Made by a program: the position numbers and the translations under genes | Notes under the pieces: generated by a model | Databases searched by the model: none | What the model was told of the DNA's origin: nothing | What the model saw: the letters and a program-made list of their open reading frames with translations, nothing else | Assembly: GCF_040436315.1 (NCBI RefSeq) | Contig: NZ_AP031572.1 | Span: 248,001 to 312,000, forward strand | DNA length: 64,000 nt | Reading direction: 5' to 3' | From: Synechocystis sp. LKSZ1 | GTDB lineage: Bacteria; Cyanobacteriota; Cyanobacteriia; Cyanobacteriales; Microcystaceae | Shown here: positions 44,800-64,000 of the stretch, in pieces | Position numbering within the stretch: position 1 is the first letter of the stretch | Layout: each line of letters starts with the position of its first letter

Positions 44800-45051
44800 C
44801 TATCCGTCTTGGGGGGCGGTATACAATCCCAGTTGGCAGGAGAGCTCCTTGGCCAGAAAGACTAAAAATTTGGCGGCTTCTAAATTATCGTTATGGGCAA
44901 AATAGGCGGATGCTTGCATCAATGCCTGAACGAAGCCACCATCAATTAAATCTACGGATTCATCTAGGATCGCTGGCTCCTGACCATTGGGACATTGGAG
45001 AAGGCGATCGATGAGTTCTAGGTAAAGGGTTTGACGGGAAGTGTTAGTCAT
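44800..45051 (-). CDS. Small protein of the nif cluster, function unknown (83 aa)
   Basis: No domain or metal motif is recognised. The sequence is rich in Leu and Ala helices (LYLELIDRLLQCPNGQEPAI, VQALMQASAYFAHND, NLEAAKFLVFLAKELS). It overlaps the upstream ArsC-like gene by one base (45051), so it is translated with it. It is the last gene of the long leftward nif unit. A role as a chaperone or regulator of nitrogenase is only a guess from location. Confidence 0.7.
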   Translation of the reverse strand: MTNTSRQTLYLELIDRLLQCPNGQEPAILDESVDLIDGGFVQALMQASAYFAHNDNLEAAKFLVFLAKELSCQLGLYTAPQDG

Positions 45052-46773: not shown

Positions 46774-47112
<339 letters not shown>

Positions 47113-47137
47113 TTAAGGTTGAAAAAACCTAATGAAT

Positions 47138-47503
47138 TTAAGAACAAGCAACTCCAGCCGGACTACAATCGCCAGCTTGAAAGGATTTACCACAGCCGCA
47201 GGTGTTGGTTGCATTTGGATTGATAAATTTAAAGCCACTTTCCAGCAAACTATCGATGTAGTCCACGACTACCCCCGCCAGCAAAGGCGAGCTTTGGGGA
47301 TCAATGAAAACTTTCAGGCTACCGAATTCCACAATTTCGTCATCGGGCTTCGGTGTTTCAGATACTTTAATGTCGTACTGATAACCGTTACAGCCGCCAT
47401 CTTTGACCGCTAAACGGATACCATGTTGGGGCGTATAGTTAGGAATGCCACGGACAAAGGTCCGTAGTCTGAGTTCTGCTAGTTCAGTAAGGGTAACAGT
47501 CAT
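47138..47503 (-). CDS. hesB: HesB/IscA-family iron-sulfur carrier
   Basis: 121 residues of the A-type carrier family: the DGGCNGYQYDIKV Cys and the C-terminal NTCGCGKSFQAGDC, which give the C-x..-CxC ligands. It delivers Fe or Fe-S to nitrogenase proteins. I take the ATG at 47503, behind a clear AAGGAG site. The open frame continues to 47659 but those 52 residues are unrelated and overlap hesA. Confidence 0.95.
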   Translation of the reverse strand: MTVTLTELAELRLRTFVRGIPNYTPQHGIRLAVKDGGCNGYQYDIKVSETPKPDDEIVEFGSLKVFIDPQSSPLLAGVVVDYIDSLLESGFKFINPNATNTCGCGKSFQAGDCSPAGVACS

Positions 47504-47579
47504 AAAATACTCCTTGGGTGAAATAGGTGAAATAACAACAGATAAAGGAACAATGAGGTAATCAAGCTCGCTGTTTTGA

Positions 47580-48404
47580 TCAGACTCCATCGAGTAAGTG
47601 GGCCGAGAGAGCACCACAAACGGGACAATTTGGGTCGTGGTAAGGACGACGTTTAGCAAATTCAGCGCGGGCTAAGTCCATGGTCAAAAGTTGGCCAAGT
47701 AAAGGCTCCCCTAGGCCGGAGATTAGTTTGATTCCTTCCAAGGCCGCTAAACAGGCCAGGGTGCCCGATACGGCTCCTAGCACTCCAAAGCCCCAGCGGT
47801 CCCATTCGGGTTTTTCGGGAAAAATACAATGGAGACAGGGGGTTTTGCCCGGCACAATGGTGGTGAGATAGGCCTCCATCCCGTTCATGGCGGCTTCCAC
47901 CATCGGTTTTTGCCAGCGCACACAGGCAGCATTTAATAAATCTCGCTCTAGGAAATCAAACGCGCAATCTAGGGCAATGTCGGCTTTCTGAACTAGTGGC
48001 TCGATATTATCGGCGCTGACATAGTCACAAACTGCCTCAATTTCAATATCCGGATTGATTTGGGACAGACTGTGTTGGGCCTTATAAACCCGAGGTTGTC
48101 CTACCCAGTCGTCAGTCATCAGAATTTGTCGATTCAAATCGTCGCGCTGTAAATTGCCGCCCCGAATCAAAATGATTTTGCCCACGCCCGCCACGGCTAA
48201 GTAAAGCGCCGCTGTTCCCCCTAAACCGCCAACACCCGTTACTAACGCAGTGGCATTTTTTAAGCGGCGTTGTCCCGTTTCCCCGAGGCCGGGTAGTATC
48301 ATCTGGCGACGATAGCGCTCAAATTCAGTGGGAGAGAGGGAGGGAAGCATCGAAATCACGGTTTTAGAAAATAAATAAACTATTCGATCAGGGTTGGCGA
48401 TCAT
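47580..48404 (-). CDS. hesA: HesA, ThiF/MoeB-family adenylyltransferase
   Basis: 274 residues: the E1-like core FERYRRQMILPGLGETGQRR, nucleotide loop GVGGLGGTAALYLAVAGVG and DLNRQIL, and two CX2C knuckles (PCLHCIFPEK and CPVCG) for zinc. HesA relatives adenylate a small sulfur carrier; in diazotrophs HesA is linked to Mo or sulfur supply to FeMo-co. An AAGG site before 48404 supports this start, although an internal Met at 48350 would give a more typical N-terminus. Confidence 0.92.
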   Translation of the reverse strand: MIANPDRIVYLFSKTVISMLPSLSPTEFERYRRQMILPGLGETGQRRLKNATALVTGVGGLGGTAALYLAVAGVGKIILIRGGNLQRDDLNRQILMTDDWVGQPRVYKAQHSLSQINPDIEIEAVCDYVSADNIEPLVQKADIALDCAFDFLERDLLNAACVRWQKPMVEAAMNGMEAYLTTIVPGKTPCLHCIFPEKPEWDRWGFGVLGAVSGTLACLAALEGIKLISGLGEPLLGQLLTMDLARAEFAKRRPYHDPNCPVCGALSAHLLDGV

Positions 48405-48425
48405 GCCGAAAACCTTGCAGGGGGC

Positions 48426-48734
48426 CTAGGATTCTAAGGTAATGTCCGACAACATCACCACGTCATGGGGCTTGTCTTGAAAGACTTTGAACAACTTTTG
48501 TTCCACCCCGGAAGAAGTCGTAAATACTTCATAGGCTTGGGTCAAGGCCTGTCGGTAGGTGCTCAATTGGGTGGCCTCATCTTGGGTTTCGTCGGCTAAC
48601 TGCACCAGTTCTGAAAACTTACGTAAGATATGCAGTCGATTGATGTTCACCACATGGGGGTCGTAGGGGATGGCGAAGAACTCAAAATAGTCCTCGGCAT
48701 CTTTAAGCTGATTAAATTGGGCGAGGGTGGTCAC
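48426..48734 (-). CDS. nifW: Nitrogenase-stabilising/protective protein NifW
   Basis: 102 residues with the NifW signature EDYFEFFAIPYDPHVVNINR followed by LHILRKFSELV. NifW binds the MoFe protein and protects it or aids its maturation, especially under O2. It overlaps the CCE_0567-like gene by 4 bp and is followed by hesA with a 21-bp gap, so it is tightly coupled in the operon. Confidence 0.95.
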   Translation of the reverse strand: MTTLAQFNQLKDAEDYFEFFAIPYDPHVVNINRLHILRKFSELVQLADETQDEATQLSTYRQALTQAYEVFTTSSGVEQKLFKVFQDKPHDVVMLSDITLES

Positions 48735-48952
48735 TGGGCGGCCTCCAAAGTTTTTAGTTGGGCTTTTAAGTCCCGGAGTTGGCAGTAGATAGCATAAGTT
48801 TGTTCTGCTACAGCGGGGAGTTGGTCTAGAGCCACAGGCAGACCTTCGGCAATATCGTGAAGATCCATCTTCATTTGACCGGCTTTGCTGTTGAGCTTTT
48901 TAATTTGCTGTTTGAGCGAATCAATATCGACGGGGGCAGTGGAAGTGGTCAT
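48731..48952 (-). CDS. CCE_0567-family nif-linked metal-binding protein (DUF683)
   Basis: 73 residues, helical: DSLKQQIKKLNSKAGQMKMD then LHDIAEGLPVALDQLPAVA and YAIYCQLRDLKAQLKTLE. This is the small helix-hairpin family found in nif clusters of cyanobacteria and proteobacteria (Cyanothece CCE_0567 type); a metal role has been proposed for family members. The start at 48952 is the family-like Met; a longer frame upstream to 49006 is unlikely. Confidence 0.85.
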   Translation of the reverse strand: MTTSTAPVDIDSLKQQIKKLNSKAGQMKMDLHDIAEGLPVALDQLPAVAEQTYAIYCQLRDLKAQLKTLEAAQ

Positions 48953-49088
48953 TTTTAGACAAGAAAAAGAAGAATTCAGGGTGATGGGAGAAATGGTGAT
49001 TCCCATGAAGTCTACGCATTGAGATTCCTCTACACTTTGACAAGCTCAGTGGGCCAATCCCCTATCGTAAAGGGGACTTGGCACTGTC

Positions 49089-49568
49089 CTAAATGTCTGC
49101 AACTTCGGGAAAACGTCTAGCCAGATCAATACCTTTTAGCACTAATTGTTCTCCCTCTTCATGCAATTTTTCGAGACTAGCAAAACCAAAGCGTTGGGCA
49201 TCTCGTAAGGTTTTTGACACCAACAACAGGCGGCCGGAAAAAATCAAGGCCCAGCCAAAACCTTCATGACTGAGATCAATCACCACTTGGGATAATAAGC
49301 CGGTTTCTTGCTCAATGCGGTAGGCGATGGCCCGGTAAAAGGCCAAAATACGGCCTTGGGCGATCGGATCCACCTCGCCTTCCACAGAAATTTGGCGTTT
49401 TTCGGCTTTGCTCAATACATAGGGTTTCAGCAAGAGTTCATCGGACCAGTTCCGAAACGTGCCATAGGGATCGTTCGCACGAATCTGCTGAACCATGGCT
49501 TTTAAAAAGGGAGAACTATCAATAAACAGGGCAGAGCTTAGTTCCAGTGGGGTAGCGACAGAACTCAT
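49089..49568 (-). CDS. NifX-associated protein (DUF269)
   Basis: 159 residues of DUF269: PFLKAMVQQIRANDPYGTFR, NWSDELLLKPYVLSKAEKRQ, RILAFYRAIAYRIEQETG and LLVSKTLRDAQRFGFASLEK. It always lies next to nifX and is thought to assist FeMo-co synthesis, though the exact step is not known. Its start overlaps nifX by 4 bp. Confidence 0.95.
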   Translation of the reverse strand: MSSVATPLELSSALFIDSSPFLKAMVQQIRANDPYGTFRNWSDELLLKPYVLSKAEKRQISVEGEVDPIAQGRILAFYRAIAYRIEQETGLLSQVVIDLSHEGFGWALIFSGRLLLVSKTLRDAQRFGFASLEKLHEEGEQLVLKGIDLARRFPEVADI

Positions 49569-49990
49569 ACAGCGACTTCCTCCTCAATTTCTAGGTATAT
49601 TTCGTCAAATTTGCTTTGTTCCCCTTTTTTCAAGGCTTTGCGTAACCACGGCGGTGGACTGCCGTTGAGGGTGGCTACCAGGCGGTTCAGAATGTCTTTG
49701 ATGTCCGCGTTGGGTTCGGGGGATTTGATGGGGGTAATGTTCATATTGATCAGACGAGCCGCGGCGCTGGGGCCAATGTCGGCAACATAAACGATAGTGC
49801 AATCCTTCAGGGCTTTAAGCTTGGGTTGCAATTTGTCTTCGTTGCCATCTTGCTTGAGGTTGCCGCCAAACTGAACGGATTGATTCAAGGTGTAACCCGT
49901 GACATCAATGTCATAAATATCAATCTGTTTAGCGGAGCCAAAGTGGGCATTGACCGCCTCAGAATCTTGGGTAGTAAAGGCAATTTTCAT
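49565..49990 (-). CDS. nifX: FeMo-co precursor carrier NifX
   Basis: 141 residues: MKIAFTTQDSEAVNAHFGSA then QIDIYDIDVTGYTLNQSV and IVYVADIGPSAAARLINMNI, the NifX/NifY fold. It binds NifB-co or the VK-cluster between NifB and NifEN. It follows nifEN by 55 bp on the same transcript. There is no NifY in the window. Confidence 0.96.
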   Translation of the reverse strand: MKIAFTTQDSEAVNAHFGSAKQIDIYDIDVTGYTLNQSVQFGGNLKQDGNEDKLQPKLKALKDCTIVYVADIGPSAAARLINMNITPIKSPEPNADIKDILNRLVATLNGSPPPWLRKALKKGEQSKFDEIYLEIEEEVAV

Positions 49991-50045
49991 GGTGTTTTCT
50001 CCTAGGGAAAAATAGCGCTAATTGGCAAGGGAATGGGGGCCAGAT

Positions 50046-52796
50046 TTAGCCGGTACCCGCGCGCCAGTGGTGAACCAAACGATGGACTCGCTGTTGATCG
50101 GTGGTTAAAAACAGGTTGCCAATGTCGAACAGCAGATCCAACGTGCCGCGATAGCCGACGGTACAACGGTGAGTGTTGCCGAGATGCTCGAGCAGGGGAA
50201 AGCCGAGTAGATACAGCGGCAAGTTGAGACGACGGGCCAGGGGTCGGGCTTTGGAGTTTGCAATCAGCAAATCAGCCCCGGCCGCGCCATCTTCCAGATC
50301 TTCGAGATCGCCGATGTAAGCTTTTGCAATGGGGAGCGTTTTTAACAGCGGGGATTGGGTGGAAGTCACAGCCGCCTGGATTTCAACCCCTAAGGAATCA
50401 AGCCACCACGTAACGCTGTAAAGCAAATCCGGTTCCAAAGCAATTGCCACTTTTTTCTGGCCAAAATAGAAGTGGGTATCAAGCATGGCATCTAACAGAC
50501 GGCGGCGCTGGCGTTCGTATTTGGTCGGGACGGGGCGATTGCTCAATTGAGACAGGGTCGTCAGGAATTGGTCAACGCCGTTCAATCCAGTTAGTTGATT
50601 AAACGTAAAGGCGGGCGTGCCAAAACGCTCGATCAACACCGTTGCCGCTTTTGTCAAACTCTGACCCAGTACTAACGTTGCTGCCGATCGCCCTACCGCC
50701 CGTAACTGGGCCACCGTTGTTCCGCCCGTGGGTGTACCGTAATATGCTTCGTCATCTAAATGACCGTCTAGGGAAGTTGAGAGATCGGGAACGACAATGG
50801 GGTTTAGCCCAAACGCTTCCACTATTTCCTTTAGTTCCTCCACATCGCCGGGGCCGAGGGCCGAACCCGCTAACACCGTCACCTGTTGGGGATCAATCTC
50901 TCCCGCTTCTGGCAGGGATTGCATCAGGCTGGTAACCGCAGCGGCAAAGCCATCTTCCAAACTGCCTTTGTAATCGGGGGTTGATGCCAACACAATCGGG
51001 GTGGTGACTTCTGGGTGGTGGGTGTGAAATTGGGTTAAGGTTCCAGCCATATCGTCATTGCGTACCTCAGTCAGGGCCGTGCTAAACAAGCCGATCAACT
51101 CTGGCTGATTTTTTTCAATCACTGTCAGCAGTCCTTGCTCAATATTGGTGTCGCCGCCCAATACGGTACTGACTTCACTCATGGCCGTGGTGGCCAGGGG
51201 AATTGACTCCTGAAAATGTCCCACCAGTAGGACTTTGGCAAAAGCCGTACAGCCTTGGGAACCGTGAAATAGGGGCATTGCGCCTTGAATGCCTAAAAAG
51301 GCGAGGGCGGCCCCCAACGGTTGGCTTTGTTTTAAGGGGTTAACGGCGACTGCTTTGCGGCGGGCAATGACCTGGGTAGGCGTTGTTGGGGCTAACGTCT
51401 CTGGCACAGCAGTCTGAGCGGCTGGGGTTTGCCAGGGGGGAACATTGCGTACCGCTTCCCAGACGGGACTGTAGAGGGTTTCGTCTAACTCCTTGGCCAT
51501 CTCCAGCAGTCCCCCATAGCCAGAATAGGGGTTATGGCGTTCTTGGTTGACATGCAGGAAAGGAATACGGGCTTTAAGGGCCGTGAATTGATTCCGTCCC
51601 CCGGCGATCAGCAAATCTGCTTTGGTTTGCTCAATCACTCGCAAGATCTCTTGAGCGCCGCCTTTGTCCATCATGATGCCGTCGGTTCCCAGTAGATTTT
51701 TAATCCGCGCCTTATCCGCTTCAGTACTTTTGCGGGTACTGGTAGCAACCACTTTAATGCCTAGATCCTGTGCAGCAGAAATAATCGACCAACTTTTGAC
51801 ACCACCGGTATAAATGACCACCCGCTTATCCTTCAGACGCTGGCGATAGGGGGCCAACTGCTGATCGAGCTTGGCCGTTTCTTCTGCAATAAGATGTTCC
51901 ACCCGCTCTTGCAGAACCGTATCCCCTAACTGTTGAGCAATATGACGCAGGCAACGATTAACATCAGCAATGCCATAGAAAGACTCTTCGATGTAGGGGA
52001 TGCCATACCGAACTTCCATTTTGGTGGCTAGGTTAATTAAAGCCTTAGAACAGATTAAGACATTCAACTTGGCATGGTGGGCGTAAGTCACTTCCCGGTA
52101 GCAGGCATCTCCCGTGATTTTGGATAAAACCCGAATGCCGAGCTTTTCCAACAACGGCAGTATGCCCCAGGTTTCCCCCGCGATGTTGTACTCGCCAATT
52201 AAATTAATGTCGTAGGGGGTGGTGTAATCGGGTTCGCCAGTGCCAATGACATAGTCTAACAGGGCCTCTCCAGCTAAACGATTGCCCAGATTTTTACTGC
52301 CCGCAAACCCCGGTGCATGGACAGGAATCACCGGTAGGGCCAGTTTTTCGCCCGCCACTTTGCACACTGCATCGAGGTCATCGCCAATCAGCGCCGTGAC
52401 ACAGGTCGAGTAAACAAAGACCGCCGCAGGACTATACCGTTGTTGGATCGTCTGAATGGCGTTATAGAGCTTTTTTTCGCCCCCAAAAATAATGTCGTTT
52501 TCGCTTAAATCCGTCGTAAAGCCTACTTTATAGAGACTCGACCCAGAAGATAAACTCCCCCGCCCCCCCCAGGAATTGCCCGCACAGGCGATCGGGCCAT
52601 GGACTAAATGGGCGGCATCGGTAATCGGAACCAGAGTAATACTAGCGCCATCAAACGCACATCCCCCTTGGGCGGCCCCCGGTTTGGCCTGTTGCTTACA
52701 GGCTTTGTTATGGCCCGCTCCATTTTTTTCGTGATTGTGTTCACAACCCGGTTGGGTCAAAAGGTCATTAAGTTTGCCGGAAGTTACGATGGTCAT
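50046..52796 (-). CDS. nifEN: Fused NifE-NifN FeMo-co scaffold
   Basis: 916 residues in one open frame. Residues 1-about 455 are NifE: GCEHNHEKNGAGHNKACKQQ, GAAQGGCAFDGA, the cluster Cys regions HGPIACAGNSW and YSTCVTALIGDD, ending PVWEAVRNVPPWQ. A linker of about 25 Ala/Thr/Pro-rich residues follows, then NifN from about 482: AVNPLKQSQPLGAALAFLG, LFHGSQGCTAFAK and DTHFYFGQKKVAIALEP. NifEN normally is an alpha2beta2 scaffold on which NifB-co matures. The fusion fixes 1:1 stoichiometry. No frameshift or stop is present at the join. Confidence 0.96.
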   Translation of the reverse strand: MTIVTSGKLNDLLTQPGCEHNHEKNGAGHNKACKQQAKPGAAQGGCAFDGASITLVPITDAAHLVHGPIACAGNSWGGRGSLSSGSSLYKVGFTTDLSENDIIFGGEKKLYNAIQTIQQRYSPAAVFVYSTCVTALIGDDLDAVCKVAGEKLALPVIPVHAPGFAGSKNLGNRLAGEALLDYVIGTGEPDYTTPYDINLIGEYNIAGETWGILPLLEKLGIRVLSKITGDACYREVTYAHHAKLNVLICSKALINLATKMEVRYGIPYIEESFYGIADVNRCLRHIAQQLGDTVLQERVEHLIAEETAKLDQQLAPYRQRLKDKRVVIYTGGVKSWSIISAAQDLGIKVVATSTRKSTEADKARIKNLLGTDGIMMDKGGAQEILRVIEQTKADLLIAGGRNQFTALKARIPFLHVNQERHNPYSGYGGLLEMAKELDETLYSPVWEAVRNVPPWQTPAAQTAVPETLAPTTPTQVIARRKAVAVNPLKQSQPLGAALAFLGIQGAMPLFHGSQGCTAFAKVLLVGHFQESIPLATTAMSEVSTVLGGDTNIEQGLLTVIEKNQPELIGLFSTALTEVRNDDMAGTLTQFHTHHPEVTTPIVLASTPDYKGSLEDGFAAAVTSLMQSLPEAGEIDPQQVTVLAGSALGPGDVEELKEIVEAFGLNPIVVPDLSTSLDGHLDDEAYYGTPTGGTTVAQLRAVGRSAATLVLGQSLTKAATVLIERFGTPAFTFNQLTGLNGVDQFLTTLSQLSNRPVPTKYERQRRRLLDAMLDTHFYFGQKKVAIALEPDLLYSVTWWLDSLGVEIQAAVTSTQSPLLKTLPIAKAYIGDLEDLEDGAAGADLLIANSKARPLARRLNLPLYLLGFPLLEHLGNTHRCTVGYRGTLDLLFDIGNLFLTTDQQRVHRLVHHWRAGTG

Positions 52797-52838
52797 GGCA
52801 ATAAATCGTGAAAGGATGCAAGGGGGAATCAGTCTGCG

Positions 52839-53159
52839 TCAACAGATGTAATGGGAAATATCTTCACCGCAAACATCGGCGAGGTACGATAAAGAACGAA
52901 ATCGGAGTCCCACCAGTTCGTTATAAACCGGGTTCAGTTCGCAGAGGGCAGGAATGTGGATTTCGCGACCCATCAGAGAAAAAGTCCGTTCAAAGGGGCA
53001 ACAGCAGGGAATAATGCGACAAACCTGGTGGGCAAAGAAACGATTATTAACATCAAGGCGGTCAATCCAGTCGCGTAACGGTCGCAGAATCTCTAAACCA
53101 GAGGCAGGGCCGGGGGCGGAAATAGGGTGGGAATGGAGGTGTTCGGTAAAGCTGTCCAT
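52839..53159 (-). CDS. Mo-dependent nitrogenase family protein
   Basis: 106 residues of the Mo-dependent nitrogenase C-terminal family (PF06967-like): LEILRPLRDWIDRLDVNNRF, CRIIPCCCPFERTFSLMGRE and IPALCELNPVYNELVGLRF. The IPCCCPFER cysteine cluster may bind metal. The family is nearly always found in cyanobacterial nif regions; its role is unknown. It lies between nifZ (8 bp) and nifEN (42 bp). Confidence 0.9.
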   Translation of the reverse strand: MDSFTEHLHSHPISAPGPASGLEILRPLRDWIDRLDVNNRFFAHQVCRIIPCCCPFERTFSLMGREIHIPALCELNPVYNELVGLRFRSLSYLADVCGEDISHYIC

Positions 53160-53167
53160 GGGAGTGA

Positions 53168-53458
53168 TTAGGTTTCTTGGGTCGAAGGTGACGGACGGTC
53201 TTCCGCCAGTTCGAGTTCGCGGCTAAGGCAACCGACGACATAGTTACTTTCCAGGAAATGAACAGAGTAGATATAGACCCGTTGCAGATAAGTCCCGATA
53301 CTAACGATGTAACCCACATCCCCCTTTTTTGCTAAATGAAAGCCGATGTCTTTGCCGGGAAAGGTGCCGTCATTACGCAGAACTTTGCGGGTACGAACCC
53401 GTTGTCCGAGATCAAAAAGAGGAGGGCCATCCAGTTCAATTTCTTCGCTGAGTTTCAT
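53168..53458 (-). CDS. nifZ: NifZ, P-cluster maturation factor
   Basis: 96 residues with GPPLFDLGQRVRTRKVLRND, FPGKDIGFHLAKKGDVGYI and QRVYIYSVHFLESNYVVGC. NifZ helps convert the P-cluster precursor in MoFe protein with NifW or NifM-like helpers. nifT, its usual neighbour, is not seen here. It lies 115 bp after nifK. Confidence 0.94.
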   Translation of the reverse strand: MKLSEEIELDGPPLFDLGQRVRTRKVLRNDGTFPGKDIGFHLAKKGDVGYIVSIGTYLQRVYIYSVHFLESNYVVGCLSRELELAEDRPSPSTQET

Positions 53459-53573
53459 GATCGGTTAGCAGTTATTAGTAAGCAAGGCTGGGGCCAGTTG
53501 CAAATACCTTTGAGAGAGGGAAAGCCTCCGTCGCAGGGGAAGTCGGCGAAAGGCCCCTGAGCACTTGTCCTCA

Positions 53574-55142
53574 TTAGCGAATGAGGTCGAAGGAAATATC
53601 CGTTTTGGCAGGGATAATAGTGTTGCGATCCAGTTCTTCTAAAATGGTGTTAATAATCCAGTTGAACTGGTTAATCGCCCCTTGGTAGCCCAGCGTGGGG
53701 TAACGGTGCAGATGATGGCGATCAAAAATGGGATAACCGATACGAACCAAGGGAGTTTTGGTATCCCGCCAGAGGTACTTGCCGTAGGAGTTGCCAATTA
53801 AAAGATCCACTGGCTCGGTGAACATTAAAGAACGGAGATGCCAAAGATCCTTTTTGCCCCAAATGGTGGCGCCTTGGCCGTAGGGATTGTTGGTCAATAC
53901 TTCCCGCAATTCCGCTTCAAATTCGGGGTTGCTGTTGGTGACGACGATATGAAGGGGTTCAGCGCCCATTTCTAAGAGAAACTGGGTTAGGCCAAACACA
54001 TGATCTGGATCGCCGTATAGAGCAATGCGCTTGCCATGAATCCAGGCTTGGGAATCCGTCAAGGCATCGACGGCTCGGCCCCGTTCTTGTTGCAGTTCTA
54101 GGGGAATTGCTTTGCCGGTAATGGCCGACAGGGCCATGAGAAATTCATCGGTTCCCTTAATGCCAAAGGGACGGAAATTATAGGTCTTTTGCCCCCACTC
54201 TTTGGCAATGTATTCCTGGGTTTTAGGGGTGGTGTATTTCTGGAAGAAGAAGGAACCTTCGGCGTTAATGGAATCGCCAGCTTCCTCCAAGGTGGTCAAG
54301 CCGTTGTACATCTTAAATTCACCCGTGTTGGGGGAATCAAAGGTATCTGAGTTGTCCGACAAAATGGTGTAATCAATGCCGAATAACCCTAAAATTCGCT
54401 TCAGTTCCCGAATATTGCCGACGTAGGGGTCAAATCCTAAGTTGAAGTTAAATTTGCCATTACTGCTTTCAGCCTTTTTGCCTTCCGTCAGCGTTTTGAG
54501 GATGCTGATTAGCATATTGTCGTAGCCCGTGATGTGGGAACCGACAAAGCTGGGGGTGTGAGCCGAGGGGACAGGTAAATCGGCGGGAATCAGTTCTTCA
54601 TTCTTGGTGGTTTGAATAAACGCGCCAATATCATCGCCAATCACTTCCGCCATACAGGTGGTGCAGAGGGCAATCATTTTCGGCTTATAAAGCTCGTAGG
54701 CGTTTTGCAAGCCCTGCTTGAGGTTGTTGAGGCCCCCAAAAACCGCTGCGTCTTCGGTCATGGAGGATGAAACCGCCTGGAAGGGTTCTTTGTAATTCCG
54801 GGTTAAGTGAGTGCGGAAGTAAGCAACGCACCCTTGGGAGCCGTGGCTGTAGGGCAATGTGCCTTCAAAACCCGATGCCACAAAAAGAGAGCCTAAGGGT
54901 TGACAAGCTTTAGCGGGATTAATGGTCAGGGCTTCCCGGGCAAAGTTTTTTTCGCGGTAATCCCAGGTTTTTGTCCATTCGGCAATTTCTTGGATTTTTT
55001 CCGGGCTGTGGGCACCTTCAAACTGGCGTTTATACTCAAATAGGTCTTGGTAAGTATCGGTATGGAATAAGTCAAAATGGTCTTGAATCTTACCAGGGTC
55101 AGTGGTTTGTTCGGGGACTTGGGGATTGGTGTTGTTAGTCAT
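53574..55142 (-). CDS. nifK: Nitrogenase MoFe protein beta subunit
   Basis: 522 residues. P-cluster ligands are visible: PAKACQPLGSLF, SHGSQGCVAYF and LCTTCMAEVIGDD, and the regions GFEGTLPYSHG and NNLKQGLQNAYELYKP are conserved. It pairs with NifD to form the alpha2beta2 enzyme. The ATG at 55142 gives the family N-terminus MTNNTNPQVPEQTTD; an in-frame start eight codons upstream is less likely. It is 94 bp downstream of nifD. Confidence 0.98.
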   Translation of the reverse strand: MTNNTNPQVPEQTTDPGKIQDHFDLFHTDTYQDLFEYKRQFEGAHSPEKIQEIAEWTKTWDYREKNFAREALTINPAKACQPLGSLFVASGFEGTLPYSHGSQGCVAYFRTHLTRNYKEPFQAVSSSMTEDAAVFGGLNNLKQGLQNAYELYKPKMIALCTTCMAEVIGDDIGAFIQTTKNEELIPADLPVPSAHTPSFVGSHITGYDNMLISILKTLTEGKKAESSNGKFNFNLGFDPYVGNIRELKRILGLFGIDYTILSDNSDTFDSPNTGEFKMYNGLTTLEEAGDSINAEGSFFFQKYTTPKTQEYIAKEWGQKTYNFRPFGIKGTDEFLMALSAITGKAIPLELQQERGRAVDALTDSQAWIHGKRIALYGDPDHVFGLTQFLLEMGAEPLHIVVTNSNPEFEAELREVLTNNPYGQGATIWGKKDLWHLRSLMFTEPVDLLIGNSYGKYLWRDTKTPLVRIGYPIFDRHHLHRYPTLGYQGAINQFNWIINTILEELDRNTIIPAKTDISFDLIR

Positions 55143-55236
55143 GATCGGTTCCAGGGAAGAGGGCAATGAGAGAGAAAGGGAAACAAAGTGGATTTCTACA
55201 ATCTGATTATTGAAATCTGACCCGTTTCCCGTAGGA

Positions 55237-56682
55237 CTAGGAATTCCAAGGGGCGGTGATTAAATCCCACGTGGGGTTATTGATCGCCAGATCCATGTCA
55301 CGGGCAAATACCTCAAAGCCTTCGTAGCCGTGGTAGGGGCCGGAGTAATCCCAGGAGTGCATCTGACGGAAGGGCAACGCCATTTTTTGGAAAACGTATT
55401 TTTCTTTAATGCCGGCGGCGATTAAATCCGGTTTGAGCTTCTTGGCTAGTTCTTCAAATTCAAAACCGCTCACGTCGTCGTAGATGATGGTGCCTTCAGC
55501 TACGTATTCAGCGGTGCGTTTGTAATCATCGCCATGGCCAAATTCGTAGCCGGTGCCAATCACTTTCATCCCTAAGTCTGTAAAAGCAGGAATAACGTGA
55601 CGGGGACGCAAACCCCCCACCATCATCATCACTTCCTTGCCCTCTAGACGAGGACGGTATTTCGCGGTGATCGCCTGCATCCGGGCTTCATGTTCAGCAA
55701 TCACTTTTTCCGCGTTAGCTTGAATGGTTTCATCAAACTGGGCGGCGATTTTGCGGAGGGAGTAGGCAATTTGGGTAGGGCCAAAGAAATTATATTCCAG
55801 CCAGCCAATGCCGTATTTTTCTTCCATGAAACGACAGATGTAGTTCATGGAGCGGTAACAGTGGATGAGGTTTAATTTAGCCAGCGGGGTCATCACCACT
55901 TCGTTAAAGGTGCCATCGCCGGAAAATTGGCAAATCACCCGGAGGCCAATGGCTTCTAACAAACGGCGACTGGGCCAGGCGTCGCCGCCAATGTTGTAGT
56001 CGCCAATGATGTTGACATCGTAGGGGCCGGGTTCAAAGCCGTCAGGAAGCTTGCGATACTCGTCGGCTTTGGGCATTACCCAATCTCGCACCGTATCGTT
56101 GGCGATGTGGTGACCGAGGGATTGGGAAACCCCCCGGAATCCTTCGCACCGAACGGGAATGACTGGTTTGCCGGTTTCTTTAGCTTTCTTTTTGGAAACG
56201 GCTTCGATGTCGTCCCCAATCAAACCGACGGGACATTCTGATTCAATGGTGATGCCTTGGCTGAGGGGAAATAGTACTTCTAACTCGTCAATCAGTTTGT
56301 CAAGCTTTTTGTCACCCCCAAACACGATGTCGCGTTCTTGGAAATCGGAGGTAAACTGCATGGTGCCAAAGGTGTCGATACCGGTGGTTCCGATATAGTA
56401 ATTACGACGACCCGACCAAGAATAGTAACCACAACCGACGGGGCCATGACTTAGGTGAATCATGTCTTTGACTGGCCCCCAAACTACCCCTTTCGCGCCA
56501 GCATAGGCACAGCCACGGGTAGTCATCACGCCGGGAACAGATTTTTTGTTAGATTTGACACCGCAATCGCTGGCATCGGCTTCCGTCACGTTTAAGTGCT
56601 TAGCACGGATTTTTTTCGCTTTGTCGGGATAGGCGTCCAGGACTTCCTGGATAAGGGCATTTTTATCAATAACAGTGGTCAT
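55237..56682 (-). CDS. nifD: Nitrogenase MoFe protein alpha subunit
   Basis: 481 residues. Cluster residues are present: [43 protein letters not shown] and the FeMo-co His/Cys regions ([37 protein letters not shown]). The Cys-ligand, ESECPVGL and homocitrate-contact parts are typical of the Mo type, not the V or Fe-only type. No V/Fe gene (no anfG/vnfG) follows. The frame is uninterrupted by any nifD element. Confidence 0.98.
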
Positions 56683-56814
56683 GATGACCTCTCTAATAGG
56701 GTAGAAATTGGGGTTGTCCGGAGGAGGAAGGGAACTTCAGAAATTAAAATTTCCAAGATCTGGTTTATTTTCTGACTTCCCTTCCGGTCTGCCATAAAAT
56801 CGCTACGGGGAGGA

Positions 56815-57723
<909 letters not shown>

Positions 57724-57792
57724 TCAATTAGGTGAACTCAAGCCGCGAATAGTCGAGGAATTAAGAAACCCGAGAATAAAGTGTCTGAAGGG

Positions 57793-57807
57793 CTCACTTT
57801 GGGTGAG
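57793..57807. repeat. Short stem-loop in the nifU-nifH interval
   Basis: CTCAC (57793-57797) and GTGAG (57803-57807) form a small hairpin 106 bp before the nifH start. Cyanobacterial nifU-nifH spacers often carry a stem-loop linked to processing of the polycistronic message. No NtcA-like GTA-N8-TAC or TACTnGTCCC box is seen in this spacer. Confidence 0.3.
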
Positions 57808-57932
57808 AATCTTTCGGGGTTGACCGGAGGCGATCGTCCGCAATGGATAAAAAGATTTGTTGGGTTCATCGGAAAACATAGAGTTTGGGTATGACTTTGA
57901 TGGGTTGGGAAGCGGCAAAGGTTAGGCTCGGT

Positions 57933-58832
57933 TTAAACAGTGACTTCTTCGACTGTGAGGGTTGGTAGTCCTCGTTGCCGCAGTTGCGCTTCAATGGCAT
58001 ATTTCACCGTTGCCGTACTGCTGGAACAACCATGACACGCACCTTTTAGGACAACCTGGACGTGGTCGCCGTTAATATCGAATAACTCCACATCGCCACC
58101 ATCAGCGCGTAATACCGGGCGAATTTCTTGATCCAGAACTTGTTGAATCAGGCTAATCTTTTGCAGGGTGGTCATGGGCAGAGCCGCTGTCGTCATGTCC
58201 ACCGTGGCTAGTTCTGCTGCTAACCGGGTCGGCACAGCAGCCTGTTGCTGTTGAATTTCTTGCAGAATGTCTTCCACCGCTGCCAAGCAAGTGCCACAAC
58301 CGCCCCCTGCTTTAAGATAATTGGTGACCTGTTCCAGGGTGGTCAAGTTATTCTCGATAATGATGCGGCGAATGCGGGGTTCCGTCACCGCATAACAGGA
58401 ACAAACCAGATTGCCTTCGTCTTCCTCGTGGTCTTCAACTTTAATGCCCCGGTAACGAAAAATGGCGGCTTCCAGGGCCTCTTGTCCCATCACCGAACAG
58501 TGCATTTTGGCTTCCGGCAGGCCCCCTAAATAGTTGGCAATGTCGTGGTTGCTGACCTGGAGCGCTTCATCCAGGGTTTTCCCTTTGACAATTTCCGTTA
58601 ACGCCGAAGATGAGGCAATCGCACTCGTACAACCGAAGGTTTGAAATTTGGCGTCAAGAATCGCCTCAGTAGAAACTTGGATTTTGAGATGGAGCCGCAA
58701 GGCATCGCCGCAGGCAATACTCCCCACTTCGCCAAACACCACTGCCACATCCGGTTCTTGCTCGTCGGTAATCGCCCCTTGGTTAACTGGGTTATAGAAC
58801 AAATCAAGCACTTTTTGAGAGTAATTCCACAT
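57933..58832 (-). CDS. nifU: Fe-S cluster scaffold NifU
   Basis: 299 residues in three modules. The IscU-like N-terminus has SIACGDALRLHLKI, FGCTSAIASSSAL and MHCSVMGQEAL. The central [2Fe-2S] domain has LVCSCYAVTEPR with GGCGTCLA. The Nfu-like C-terminus has LKGACHGCSSSTATVK. NifU receives sulfur from NifS and hands clusters to NifH and NifB. It is 69 bp after nifS. Confidence 0.97.
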   Translation of the reverse strand: MWNYSQKVLDLFYNPVNQGAITDEQEPDVAVVFGEVGSIACGDALRLHLKIQVSTEAILDAKFQTFGCTSAIASSSALTEIVKGKTLDEALQVSNHDIANYLGGLPEAKMHCSVMGQEALEAAIFRYRGIKVEDHEEDEGNLVCSCYAVTEPRIRRIIIENNLTTLEQVTNYLKAGGGCGTCLAAVEDILQEIQQQQAAVPTRLAAELATVDMTTAALPMTTLQKISLIQQVLDQEIRPVLRADGGDVELFDINGDHVQVVLKGACHGCSSSTATVKYAIEAQLRQRGLPTLTVEEVTV

Positions 58833-58901
58833 AACAATTTCTCAGCTCAAGAAGGAATTTTTTAATGTCGGTCAACAGATTTCAGCAACAGAGGGCCGGC
58901 C

Positions 58902-60086
58902 CTAGGCCACGTTTCGACTCTGCAACCAATCGGCCCGATCGTTGTTGAAAGGAGACAAGGAGCGGAGTTTGTCCACAATGCCGGGCATTACCGTTAATAC
59001 CTGGCGAATTTCATGCTCAGTGGTAAAGCGGGATAGACTGAAACGAATCGAGCCATGCAAAATGACATAGGGCAACTGCATCGCCATCAGCACATGGGAA
59101 GGCTCGAGGGAACCCGAGGTGCAGGCCGAACCGGAAGAGGCGCAAATTCCGTATTGGTTGAGCATGAAGAGAATGGCTTCCCCTTCAATGTATTTGAAAC
59201 CAATATTGGTGGTGTTCGGCAAACGGGATGCACCACCGCCATTCACTTCGCAGTCGGGAATTTGGGACTGCAACTGGGTTTCTAATAAATCCCGCAACCG
59301 CCGTTCGCGCTCCACGTTGTACAAATGAGTCTGAGCTAGTTCCGCCGCTTTTCCTAGCGCCACAATCCCTGGGACATTCTGGGTTCCGGCCCGTCGTCCC
59401 CGTTCTTGATGGCCGCCGAGAAGGAACGGCCGGAAGCGGAAGCCACGACGCACATAGAGAGCGCCAATCCCTTTCGGCGCGTGGAGTTTATGACCCGAGA
59501 GGGTCAGCATATCAATGGTGCTCGTACTCAGATCAATCGGGACTTTCCCCACCGCCTGTACCGCATCCACATGGAAGGTGGCGCCATAGTCCTTGGTGAT
59601 CGCCCCAATTTGTTCGACCGGGAAAATCACTCCCGTTTCGTTATTGGCATACATGGTGGTCACCAGGGCCGTGCCGCCGGTCATGGCCGCTTCCAGTTCC
59701 AGTAGATCAAGTTGACCCCGGCGATCGACGGATAAATAAGTAACGCGATAGCCCTTCTTTTCCAAATGCTTGCAAACATTGAGAATTGCGGGATGCTCCA
59801 CCGCCGTCGTTACAATGTGCCGCTTATCGGGCTGGGCCGCCAATGCAGCATGAATTGCCGTATTATTGCCTTCGCTCCCGCAACTGTTAAAGATAATTTC
59901 CGTTTCTTCCGCGCCTAACAGTTCCGCTACCTGGCCTCTCGCCTTCAGAATATCAGCCCCGACCTGACCGCCAAAACTGTGCATAGAAGAGGGATTACCA
60001 TACAGATCGCTCAAATAGGGCAGCATTGCCTCCAACACGTCGGGGTCAACCCGAGTCGTTGCATTGTTGTCTAAGTAAATGACCAT
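58902..60086 (-). CDS. nifS: Cysteine desulfurase NifS
   Basis: 394 residues of the PLP fold: MVIYLDNNATTRVDPDVLEA, HAPKGIGALYVRRG next to the PLP Lys in SGHKLHAP, and the active Cys loop ICASSGSACTSGSLEPSHVL. It mobilises sulfur from cysteine for NifU. The ATG at 60086 is the family start; an upstream Met at 60104 adds six residues. It is directly downstream of nifB with no fdxN in the 83-bp spacer. Confidence 0.97.
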   Translation of the reverse strand: MVIYLDNNATTRVDPDVLEAMLPYLSDLYGNPSSMHSFGGQVGADILKARGQVAELLGAEETEIIFNSCGSEGNNTAIHAALAAQPDKRHIVTTAVEHPAILNVCKHLEKKGYRVTYLSVDRRGQLDLLELEAAMTGGTALVTTMYANNETGVIFPVEQIGAITKDYGATFHVDAVQAVGKVPIDLSTSTIDMLTLSGHKLHAPKGIGALYVRRGFRFRPFLLGGHQERGRRAGTQNVPGIVALGKAAELAQTHLYNVERERRLRDLLETQLQSQIPDCEVNGGGASRLPNTTNIGFKYIEGEAILFMLNQYGICASSGSACTSGSLEPSHVLMAMQLPYVILHGSIRFSLSRFTTEHEIRQVLTVMPGIVDKLRSLSPFNNDRADWLQSRNVA

Positions 60087-60169
60087 TTCAATATCTCCAG
60101 TCAAAAATCAGTTATCGATCAACAGCGATCAGTCATCAGTAATGGGCGATCAACGAAGAATTTTGAACG

Positions 60170-61624
60170 CTATTCCAGCACGTATTCGTCGTAAAAATGC
60201 CGGGCCGCTGTCTCAATAACATCGAAGGCTTCGATAACTTCTAAACCAGCTTCTTGGAGGGCTTTGGCAGGACAAGGCCCCACTTTGGCGGCCAGGATAG
60301 CCTGACAATCCGCAATGGTGTCGATAATGCCTTTTAAGGCTGCCTCTTCGCCGTAGCCCCCTTGGCAATAGTCCGTAATTTTGCGAGAGCTAACAAACTG
60401 AACGCTGGCGGCATCCACTTCGTAAATCAGGAATTCCTTCGCATGACCAAAGTGCTGATTGACCATGCCGCCCCCTTTACTGGCTACGGCAACAAGGACT
60501 TTCTTGGACTGGGAACGATGAGAGTTGCCCAGGATGGCTTGTTTTTTCTCGGCAATAGCGGCTTTGGCCTGTTCAATGCCTAGATGTACCGCTTGCCGGT
60601 CTGCCAGATTGTAATCCGCCGTCATTTGCATAAATTTCGTTTTAGTAAATTCCTGGCTCCGGTCTTCGCCTAGCAGGCCGACCGCGTCGGCGCGACACTG
60701 ACGGCAATGACGCATGAGTTTCATGTTGCCAGCGCATTTATCTTGAACGGCTTTTAGTTCCGAAGGTTTTGGCCCCCGCTGACCGTTTAACCCAAAGTGG
60801 GTGCCGTGCTCCGGTGCTGAAATCAGCGGCATGATGTTATGGAGGAACGCGCCCCGCTCCCGAATCGCCTGATTGACTTCCGGCATGTGCTCGTCATTAA
60901 TGCCGGGAATGAGCACGGAATTGACTTTACAGAGAATGTCTGCTTCTTTGAGGGCCTGTAATCCCTCCATCTGGCGCTCATGTAGGATCTTGACCCCTTC
61001 GATGCCAGGATAGCGCTTGCGGCGATAGTGAACCCAGGGATAAATTTTTTCGCCGATTGCTGGGTCAACCATATTGATGGTGATGGTGACATGGTCAACA
61101 TTGAGTTGTTTAATGCGATCCACATAATCCGGCAACATTAACCCGTTGGTGGAAAGGCAAAGCTTAATGTCTGGCGCTTTGTCGGCCACCAACTCAAACG
61201 TACGAAAAGTTTGTTCGGGATTAGCTAACGGATCGCCAGGGCCGGCAATGCCCAATACCGTCATCTGGGGAATTTTGCCTGCCACCACCAAGACTTTATG
61301 GGCCGCTTCTTCCGGTGTCAGTAATTCGCTCACTACCCCAGGGCGACTTTCATTGGCACAGTCATATTTGCGATTGCAATAATGACATTGAATGTTGCAA
61401 GCCGGTGCGACTGCTACATGCATACGGGCATAGTGATGATGGGCTTCTTCGCTGTAGCAAGGGTGTTTCTCAATCCTCGCTTTGAGGGCTTCGCTTATCC
61501 CCATCGGATCGGTATTGGTGTTACAGTTACACCCCCCTCCAGATTGAGTCACTTTAGTTTGGGTTTTAGTGAGCGTGATATCCAGATGGGTTGTTGTTGG
61601 CGTCAGAGAAGTCGGTGGCGTCAT
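60170..61624 (-). CDS. nifB: FeMo-co biosynthesis radical-SAM protein NifB with C-terminal NifX-like domain
   Basis: 484 residues. The radical-SAM Cys motif is in [16 protein letters not shown] (CX3CX2C), with [20 protein letters not shown] before it and the SAM-binding [11 protein letters not shown]. The C-terminal about 110 residues ([20 protein letters not shown]) are a NifX/NafY-like domain. NifB makes NifB-co, the 8Fe-9S-C precursor. The family start is the ATG at 61624; an upstream in-frame start at 61657 adds 11 residues. It heads the leftward operon. Confidence 0.97.
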
Positions 61625-61980
61625 TTGATTTTTGGGGGTAAAGGATGAAAAAAGCACGATCGGACATCAAAGCTAGAATCGGAACCTCAAAAGGTTTGGG
61701 GTCGGCGATTACTGCCATGAACTTAAGCCAAAACGCCTGATCAATCTTGGTAAACCAGCTATCAAACTTAAGCACAGAGGCACAAATTGTATTTAGTAAG
61801 CTTCAACAGCGTCATCACTTCTCTTGCATAACGGTGGCTAGATCATTCACTGTGAAAAGCGAAGGAGCTTGCCAATTAACCGACTTTCACCGTTGAAACT
61901 AGATTGCTGGGCGTTGCCTAACGTTATAGCAACCCTTGTAAATAGCGATTGCGACAAGGGCCGCGGTAAAATTGATTAAG

Positions 61981-61986
61981 TTATTA
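61981..61986 (-). promoter_or_regulatory. Candidate -10 (TAATAA) of nifB
   Basis: The minus strand reads TTGCTAATAACTT. The T of TAATAA is 61 bp from the end of the proximal box, the same distance as on the nifP side. No -35 consensus is present, which fits an activator-dependent promoter. Confidence 0.5.
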
Positions 61987-62046
61987 GCAATGTACTTGTT
62001 TCCCAAACTCCTTTAAAAACAAGGTGTTAAGAAAAAATTAAGATCG

Positions 62047-62104
62047 GGGGACGAGACTTTTTTAACTCAGGGGCTGGTATTTTATCGCCTGGGGACTGTT
62101 ATTG
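62047..62104 (-). promoter_or_regulatory. Array of three boxes upstream of nifB
   Basis: On the minus strand: CAATAACAGTCCCC (62104-62091), AAAATACCAGCCCC (62083-62070) and AAAGTCTCGTCCCC (62060-62047). Spacing is 21 and 23 bp. They share AATAC-n-n-G-T/C-CCCC with the nifP array and point towards nifB. Confidence 0.7.
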
Positions 62105-62199
62105 ATGCACTCAGTCAAATTCTTTGCTAGGCAAGCGATTTCAGCTATTTCAGGGAGGGTTGTGCAACGATTTTTCTGAGTACTCAGTCCCTATCTTTT

Positions 62200-62213
62200 G
62201 TAATAAAAGATAC
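62200..62213. promoter_or_regulatory. NtcA-like site GTAATAAAAGATAC
   Basis: An exact GTA-N8-TAC palindrome, the NtcA consensus, between the two box arrays. The usual -10 about 22 bp away is not clear on either strand, so it may act from a distance or be chance. Confidence 0.4.
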
Positions 62214-62715
62214 TAAATCAATGGGGTATTAGTGGAGTCTGATCTCTTATTTGCATCACCAATTTCAAGATTATCACTTTTTTGTATTAATTTACACTAT
62301 TCGTTGAGACGGAAGAGAGTGGGAATCTGTAGTAACCCTTAAGCCAGCTAGATCATAATGATAGAGAGCTCTCAGTAACCCAATGTCCTCTTCAAGCAAG
62401 TCAACCCGACCCGACCCTCTCAAGCCATCTATTACTCAGGCTTCCTCTGTTAATTCAAGGCTCAGAATTACACCGTTGCTGGTGGCCCTCTCCCTAGAAG
62501 TTATCCACAAGTAAAAAGATGTGGTTAGCGAAGCCTGTGTTAAGAAAATTTGAAATAAAAGGATGTTTTTTGGTATTTTATGCTACATTTTCTGTGGGGA
62601 TGTTTATAAATAACACCGCTTTAAGCAAGCGGTTGAGTGCATCAATTATGTGTTTATTTTTTGTCTTTAATTGGTTGCTTAAGGCTTGATAGATAAGGAG
62701 AATGAGCTGAGTACA

Positions 62716-62773
62716 AAATACTTGTCCCTCCCTTGAGAAATACTGACCCCTCACGAAAAAAATACTCGTCCCC
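62716..62773 (+). promoter_or_regulatory. Array of three boxes upstream of nifP
   Basis: AAATACTTGTCCCT (62716-62729), AAATACTGACCCCT (62738-62751) and AAATACTCGTCCCC (62760-62773). Spacing is exactly 22 bp twice, two helical turns, so all boxes face one side of the DNA. They point towards nifP. Confidence 0.75.
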
Positions 62774-62833
62774 CAGCCCAACATTAAAGTTTCTCCCTGG
62801 TACCATCAGGGTTACAGCGATTGAGTGTCAGGA

Positions 62834-62839
62834 TAATAA
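62834..62839 (+). promoter_or_regulatory. Candidate -10 (TAATAA) of nifP
   Basis: In GGATAATAAA, 61 bp after the proximal box. It can also be read GATAAT (62832-62837). Transcription would start near 62845, leaving a very short leader to the ATG at 62855, which may argue for one of the downstream starts of nifP. Confidence 0.5.
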
Positions 62840-62854
62840 AAAAAATAAATCAGG

Positions 62855-63622
62855 ATGGACGCTCAAGTTTTTAGAGCCAAAATCAGGGTTGCTATAAGCA
62901 GGAAAAGATTGTCTTCGAGTGCGATGCCCCTATCCTTTTCCCACCCTTTAATCCCTTCCCTGGCTCCTTCTCCCCAGATGTCAGACGAACCGTTCTCCCT
63001 GTGGATGGACATTAGGATTATTTTTGAACGCGATCCTGCAGCCCGAAATTGGTTGGAGGTATGCTTTTGTTACCCTGGTTTACAAGCGATCACCGCCTAT
63101 CGCCTATCCCACTGGCTCCATGCTCGAGGAATTGTGTTTATTCCCCGGTTGATTGCTCATTTTGCCCGTTTTTTCACAGGGATTGAGATTCATCCAGGTG
63201 CAAAATTGGGTAAAGGGGTTTTTATTGATCACGGGATGGGGGTCGTCATCGGAGAAACCGCCATTGTGGGGGATTACGCCGTGATTTACCAAGGCGTTAC
63301 CTTGGGCGGCACTGGCAAGGAAACGGGCAAACGTCATCCCACCCTTGGTAAGGGAGTTGTGGTAGGGACTGGGGCCATCATTCTCGGTAATATCACCATT
63401 GGCGACCAAGCTCGTATTGGTGCAGGGTCAGTGGTGTTGAGGGATGTACCGGCTAACTGTACAGCAGTCGGTATTCCCAGTCGTAATATCTGTCAGTGCA
63501 ATACCGTGGCGACTCCTTTAGAGCATGGTCAACTCCCAGATACAAATGCGTTAGCACTACAACAGTTGTTAAAACGTATCGAAGCCCTTGAACAGCAATT
63601 ACAACATTGTTTCCCGACTTGA
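62855..63622 (+). CDS. nifP: Serine O-acetyltransferase NifP (CysE family)
   Basis: Up to 255 residues. The enzyme core begins near [20 protein letters not shown] and contains the left-handed beta-helix hexapeptides ([40 protein letters not shown]) with the catalytic His in DHGMG. It makes O-acetylserine to boost cysteine for cluster assembly. Three in-frame ATGs (62855, 62924, 62978) compete; the third matches family N-termini, and the first lies very near the predicted transcription start. Its C-terminus (about 215-255) is a short helix. Confidence 0.93.
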
Positions 63623-63714
63623 GAGCTAGCTTCCCTGACCAATCATCTTAATCATTTTAAGCATTTTGATTGACATCCTCTCGAACGATTCCACCTTTTC
63701 TTGGCGAGACTGCT

Positions 63715-64000
63715 ATGACTTTTGCCCATCAAATCTACATCAATGATACAACCCTCCGCGATGGTGAACAGGCGGCTGGTATCGCTTTCACAATCGCCGA
63801 AAAAGTGGCGATTGCCAAATTTCTCGATGCCATTGGAGTACAAGAATTAGAAATCGGGATTCCCGTTATGGGACAAGACGAGGCGAAAGCCATCCGGGCG
63901 ATAGTGGATTTAGGCTTAAATGCTCAACTTTTGGGCTGGAATCGGGCGCTGATTAGCGATATTCAGGCCTCCCGCCACTGTGGTCTGCAACGAGTTCATC
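63715..64000 (+). CDS. nifV: Homocitrate synthase NifV (5' part, cut by the window end)
   Basis: The first 95 codons are present: YINDTTLRDGEQAAGIAF holds the HMGL-like metal-binding D and R-D-G-E-Q motif, then ELEIGIPVMGQDEAKAIRAI and LGWNRALISDIQASRHCGL. It joins acetyl-CoA to 2-oxoglutarate to give homocitrate, the organic part of FeMo-co. The ATG at 63715 lies 92 bp after nifP on the same strand, so the two are one transcript. The gene continues past the window. Confidence 0.95.
   Translation, partial: MTFAHQIYINDTTLRDGEQAAGIAFTIAEKVAIAKFLDAIGVQELEIGIPVMGQDEAKAIRAIVDLGLNAQLLGWNRALISDIQASRHCGLQRVH

Follow-up and report, generated by a model that had tools for sequence, protein, structure and literature searches.

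The analysed window, a stretch of 64,000 nucleotides from Synechocystis sp. LKSZ1, contains a nif gene region in which nifB and nifP, recognised by their matches to TIGR01290 and TIGR01172, flank a divergent promoter region with one gene on each side. On the plus strand nifP is followed by nifV, and on the minus strand nifB is followed by nifS, nifU, nifH, nifD, nifK and a fused nifEN; apart from nifB, nifP, nifV and nifEN, the genes were named by reading the translations. The nifP reading frame opens at 62855, but since the ATG listed there sits at the promoter, the gene probably begins at ATG 62978. Similarly, the frame of nifB is open up to GTG 61657, and the MTPP start of its Nostoc relatives points to ATG 61624 as the probable initiation codon. 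The nifEN gene (window positions 50046-52796) joins NifE and NifN in one protein of 916 aa with two Oxidored_nitro stretches, and long open frames suggest the same fusion in several relatives. In addition, a small protein with a CPNGQEP motif and no Pfam match is encoded in the nif region (window positions 44800-45051). In heterocystous relatives a CPNGQEP-like protein belongs to a separate operon, which is driven by a promoter module of the kind described below and places it behind a membrane-like protein of ~140 aa; such a protein occurs at loci L117, L125, L128, L130, L131, L134 and L136-L139.

Between nifB and nifP, in the region 61981-62839, two arrays diverge from each other, each consisting of three related boxes (Table 1). 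The first-pass annotation of this DNA had described three copies of a 14-bp box at each promoter, and three related boxes were indeed located on both strands as 15-mers, the match to its 14-mer being weak for some of them (three mismatches each in nifP box 2 and nifB box 1). It had further claimed a spacing of 22/22 bp for the nifP array and of 21/23 bp for the nifB array, a difference that proved to be a register slip and was rejected: counted on AATAC the spacing is 22/22 in both arrays, and counted on CCCC it is 21/23 in both, since in both arrays the stretch from TACT to CCCC is one base shorter in box 2. The TAATAA noted 61 bp past the last base of box 3 was recovered at both promoters. 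Array and promoter together score 49.3 and 41.3; when the intergenic region was dinucleotide-shuffled 500 times, the score never exceeded 4.1, which agrees with the earlier judgement that a chance origin of the matched geometry is very unlikely. The nifB array is degenerate, with AATAACAG as box 1 and AAGTCTCG as box 3. Further elements, absent from the first-pass annotation, are TGAGTACA-like copies that flank each array on either end, a conserved AATAAAT and, in the stretch separating the arrays, two GTA-N8-TAC sites. The two candidate -10 elements on the nifP side would place the transcription start roughly 70-85 bp past box 3.

Table 1. Features of the nifB-nifP promoter region (window coordinates; on the minus strand a box starts at its higher coordinate)
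Feature	Position	Strand	Remarks
nifB, probable start at ATG 61624	60170..61624	-	TIGR01290, E 3.5e-198
AATCAAT, counterpart of conserved AATAAAT	61971..61977	-	position near that of relatives
TAATAA, nifB side	61981..61986	-	61 bp past box 3
nifB promoter element P, CAAGTACA	61991..61998	-	6/8 match; 63 bp after box-3 start
nifB box 3 AAAAGTCTCGTCCCC, proximal	62047..62061	-	relatives-only matrix 29.3, best on minus strand
nifB box 2 AAAATACCAGCCCCT	62069..62083	-	15-mer
nifB box 1 TCAATAACAGTCCCC, degenerate	62091..62105	-	15-mer
nifB distal element D, TGAGTGCA	62106..62113	-	
GTAATAAAAGATAC, NtcA-type GTA-N8-TAC	62200..62213		between arrays; class enriched in relatives
GTATTTTATGCTAC, NtcA-type GTA-N8-TAC	62573..62586		between arrays; TATAAAT then at 62605-62611
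nifP distal element D, TGAGTACA	62708..62715	+	immediately before box 1
nifP box 1 AAAATACTTGTCCCT	62715..62729	+	15-mer
nifP box 2 GAAATACTGACCCCT	62737..62751	+	15-mer
nifP box 3 AAAATACTCGTCCCC, proximal	62759..62773	+	relatives-only matrix 42.7, best in window
TTGAGT, possible -35 of nifP	62821-62826	+	
nifP promoter element P, TGAGTGTC	62822..62829	+	5/8 match to TGAGTACA; 63 bp after box-3 start
TAATAA, candidate -10 of nifP (one of two)	62834..62839	+	12 bp after P start; 61 bp past box 3
AATAAAT, rival candidate -10 of nifP	62844..62850	+	17-bp spacer from TTGAGT; conserved block TTGAGTACAnnCTTAATnAnTCnAATAAAT
nifP, serine O-acetyltransferase, CysE family, probable start at ATG 62978	62978..63622	+	TIGR01172 match from ORF residue 51

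Conservation of the boxes among relatives, on which the first-pass annotation had staked its proposal, was assessed with a matrix built solely from the six window boxes and scanned, in 79 relatives, over the sequence upstream of nifB to a maximum of 1.2 kb. A triple array was detected at 78 of these 79 loci, each of which outscored all 100 shuffles of its own sequence (p 0.01 per locus, the floor with 100 shuffles), and the boxes are present at nifP promoters as well. The box spacing in the nifB arrays of the relatives is nearly always 21-23 and 22 bp, and the retention of three tandem elements among diazotrophic cyanobacteria is likewise borne out by a model derived from the relatives only. 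At the nifB locus of a Rivularia MAG (L036), no module was found within 1.2 kb directly upstream of nifB; a module-like match lies ~2.6 kb upstream of the gene, perhaps owing to an insertion or rearrangement.

Alignment of these regions delineates a module of ~145 bp, which comprises in order TGAGTACA, the three boxes, an A/T tract, TTGAGTACA, TAATnA and AATAAAT. The boxes follow the consensus (T/A)AAATACTnGT(A)CCCC as a direct repeat with a 22-bp period, and the core promoter block reads TTGAGTACA-N3/4-TAATnA-N4-AATAAAT. The distal TGAGTACA element, matched at 7 or more of 8 positions in 80 of 93 modules, keeps a constant distance to the array (51-53 bp before box 3), while the proximal element P keeps a constant distance to the core promoter, TAATnA lying 12 bp after its start in 73 of 91 modules. 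At L048, L059, L067 and comparable regions preceding nifB in Nostocaceae, the distal copy was seen to be preceded, ~71 bp upstream, by a third copy of TGAGTACA. Among the loci sampled in other nif-bearing cyanobacteria, the module precedes nifB, nifP, nifV or small accessory or unknown genes; a protein of 172-176 aa of unknown function, for instance, is encoded right behind a CnfR-type module at L096 and L126 (genomes G261 and G155).

Searching the 3.67-Mb genome with the relatives-only model, which was built from 42 modules of relatives with the window excluded, returned exactly the two window sites (E 2.1e-18 and 2.9e-15), the third match having an E value of 0.34; on that ground, a direct regulon extending beyond these two sites was rejected. 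In a survey of 100 genomes of the order, with a module threshold of E 1e-4 and canonical NifD defined by at least 70% identity, arrays were confined to genomes that have CnfR or a canonical nifD of the cyanobacterial type: the module was found in 28 genomes, namely in all 27 with canonical NifD and in one other, G398, which has CnfR (Fisher p 1.5e-23 for module versus NifD and 5.8e-21 for module versus CnfR). Where the only NifD is a divergent one (best match ~33-48% identity), no module passed this threshold. The divergent nitrogenase clusters devoid of modules are those of G002, G064, G205, G296, G211, G432, G443, G393 and G114, and control of nif may be different in such genomes. In some of them a CnfR-like protein (39-43% identity) is encoded; G114 and G393 combine such a protein with a divergent NifD, and in G127 the module is present and the CnfR match is only partial.

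The proposal that the boxes are candidate CnfR sites is strengthened by the conservation of the arrays, their confinement to genomes with canonical nifD or CnfR, and the occurrence of one CnfR homologue in this genome, encoded just outside the window, ~4.8 kb beyond its end (G000:C1:316767-318404). This protein combines an N-terminal [4Fe-4S] dicluster with a C-terminal helix-turn-helix of the XRE type (in the 536-aa form, Fer4 spans residues 7-57 and HTH_3 residues 486-524). Judged from sequence comparison, each array is very probably the operator of a CnfR-type activator. Since the genome holds only two modules, the direct CnfR regulon would consist of the nifB-side and nifP-side operons. 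According to the mechanism we propose, the [4Fe-4S] clusters of CnfR would report low oxygen, and the protein would occupy the three boxes next to one another by means of its XRE domain, possibly in a cooperative manner as an oligomer, as had been suggested earlier. Bound CnfR would then act on RNA polymerase at the core promoter.

That the boxes are read by a different regulator, such as NtcA, the CnfR paralogue ChlR, DevH or yet another protein, with CnfR acting only indirectly, appears improbable. NtcA-type sites do occur close by, between the arrays, but they fall outside the modules, and the module is missing from 72 of 73 genomes without canonical NifD (E 1e-4), whereas NtcA is general in cyanobacteria. 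No CnfR paralogue was found in this genome at E <1e-3, and ChlR is therefore not evident here. Moreover, CnfR1 of A. variabilis activates nifB1 without NtcA (PMC8510180). Still less credible is a joint action of both arrays as one bridged or looped control structure for nifB and nifP, a view to which their divergent orientation and equal internal geometry lend themselves. The first-pass annotation had spoken of a mirror image, of which the divergence of the arrays holds; the distance between them is not conserved but ranges from ~225 to 633 bp in relatives, so that two separate modules are indicated and a bridge of fixed geometry is rejected. In line with this, the modules of heterocystous genomes stand singly and apart from one another.

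The two GTA-N8-TAC sites belong to a class that is enriched in the same position elsewhere: the inter-array stretches of 30 divergent pairs contain 27 such sites versus 4 expected (~sevenfold), distributed over 15 of the 30 pairs, a count that overstates the number of events because the loci are related and hence not independent of one another. With other spacer lengths from 3 to 14 bp, the same stretches yield 0-5 sites each, and the enrichment is therefore specific for N8. In the inter-array stretches of the nearest relatives (L011, L012 and L016) no GTA-N8-TAC was found, and there is none inside either window module, where an NtcA-activated promoter would be expected to carry it. These NtcA-type sites may add a nitrogen signal beside the oxygen signal.

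A further constraint emerged from the distance between the start of box 3 and the proximal TGAGTACA element, which was searched for over 45-100 bp in 170 modules (those in which only the box 1-2 block had been recognised were shifted by 22 bp). This spacer is two-valued: it measures 62-66 bp in 80 modules and 73-77 bp in 90 modules, with class means of 63.85 and 74.11 bp, about one helical turn apart, and a length of 67-72 bp occurs in none of the 170. The same two classes were obtained by a phylum-wide pattern search and from the model match lengths. Both window promoters, with 63 bp, fall into the short class. On quick trees, the class changed at least seven times for NifB and at least three times for NifP, numbers that are approximate because many branches of these trees are weak and because nif genes are passed between lineages. 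Furthermore, L037, L046 and G155 combine a long nifB spacer with a short nifP spacer, and G170 and L068 show the reverse.

The simplest reading of this pattern would be that the helix has to present array and promoter on the same face. Activation would accordingly be possible only in that phase, and the spacer could change its length only by a whole helical turn; both this reading of the helical face and the contact between CnfR and polymerase are what we infer from the spacing alone. CRP at lac offers a familiar example of an activator whose site must lie whole turns away from the promoter; it shares the dependence on helical phase, albeit with another protein and at a site unlike the triple-box direct repeat of the window, and serves as an analogy only. 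We favour, as the likelier account, an activation by CnfR that is confined to one helix face with spacer jumps of one turn, within a mobile, self-contained unit of nif genes, cnfR, modules and NtcA-type sites. With clearly lower probability, the spacer classes are simply inherited promoter types, the gap from 66 to 73 bp having arisen by accident from few ancestral states. Large clades share one class, nearly all Nostocaceae nifB spacers being long, and under a narrow null of 62-77 bp the chance that ten changes all miss the gap is p ~0.009, which is not overwhelming. Inheritance of this kind is opposed by the repeated changes at both genes, all of about one turn, by the differing classes of the two promoters within one genome in several lineages, and by the recurrence of the same gap in separate measurements. 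A literature search on helical phasing at nif promoters retrieved nothing relevant, and no earlier description of the two-valued spacer was found in the literature examined, although it may stand in other papers.

The CnfR-recognised element of Leptolyngbya boryana reportedly comprises nine motifs, which lie 76 bp before the start sites of nifB and nifP and are said to be conserved in diazotrophic cyanobacteria; these would fit three boxes of three parts. As cited in later work, CnfR was established there as an activator of nif genes (Tsujimoto 2014, cited in PMC8510180, PMC5943405, PMC7699953), and its cis-element was subsequently described (Tsujimoto, Kamiya and Fujita 2016, Mol Microbiol 101:411, cited in PMC8510180, PMC7699953). 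The L. boryana system, as described, resembles the present one in the two divergent genes, the type of regulator and a conserved upstream element; it differs in the organism and in that the window boxes are more degenerate. Elements thought to bind CnfR were also reported upstream of nifB in both A. variabilis and L. boryana (PMC8510180), and CnfR drives the nifB and nifP promoters in Synechocystis (PMC5943405). In Anabaena variabilis, conserved sites CS1-CS3 and TGAGTATA motifs lie upstream of nifB1 and nifB2 (Fig. 11 legend of PMC4284476; PMC8510180), and nifB1 transcription drops by ~50% when one site is lost and by ~75% when two are (PMC8510180). The TGAGTAyA elements upstream of nifB, for which an extended -10 promoter is claimed there, parallel the window, whose promoters are of the short class, whereas Nostocaceae nifB promoters represent the long class. 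Published transcription starts are placed at -328 in A. variabilis (as given in PMC4284476) and at -282 in PCC 7120 (PMC3141674). The window modules are a new instance of the published class of CnfR elements, and the core finding is not new.

With regard to the origin of the cluster, three proteins were compared, on which the reading as a transfer rests. EF-G of the window is 96% identical to that of the genus-mate G078 and 85% to that of Nodosilinea nodulosa (L012, genome G446), whereas NifD (79% and 91%, respectively) and CnfR (46% and 60%) show the opposite order, and no NifD match was found in the genus-mates G074 and G091 at E 1e-60. Since the identities of NifD and CnfR run opposite to that of EF-G, the nif cluster and cnfR (window positions 46774-63999 and L009:7268-8908) look as if they had been horizontally acquired together, promoters included.

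Taken together, the parts of the nif switch are fixed here in a new organism, with boxes at 22 bp, distal and proximal TGAGTACA elements and the core promoter block as constants. The two-valued spacer offers a simple bench test of the action of CnfR on RNA polymerase as well as a design rule for synthetic nif clusters. This genome looks like the outcome of a natural transfer in which nif travelled with a regulator and promoters of its own.
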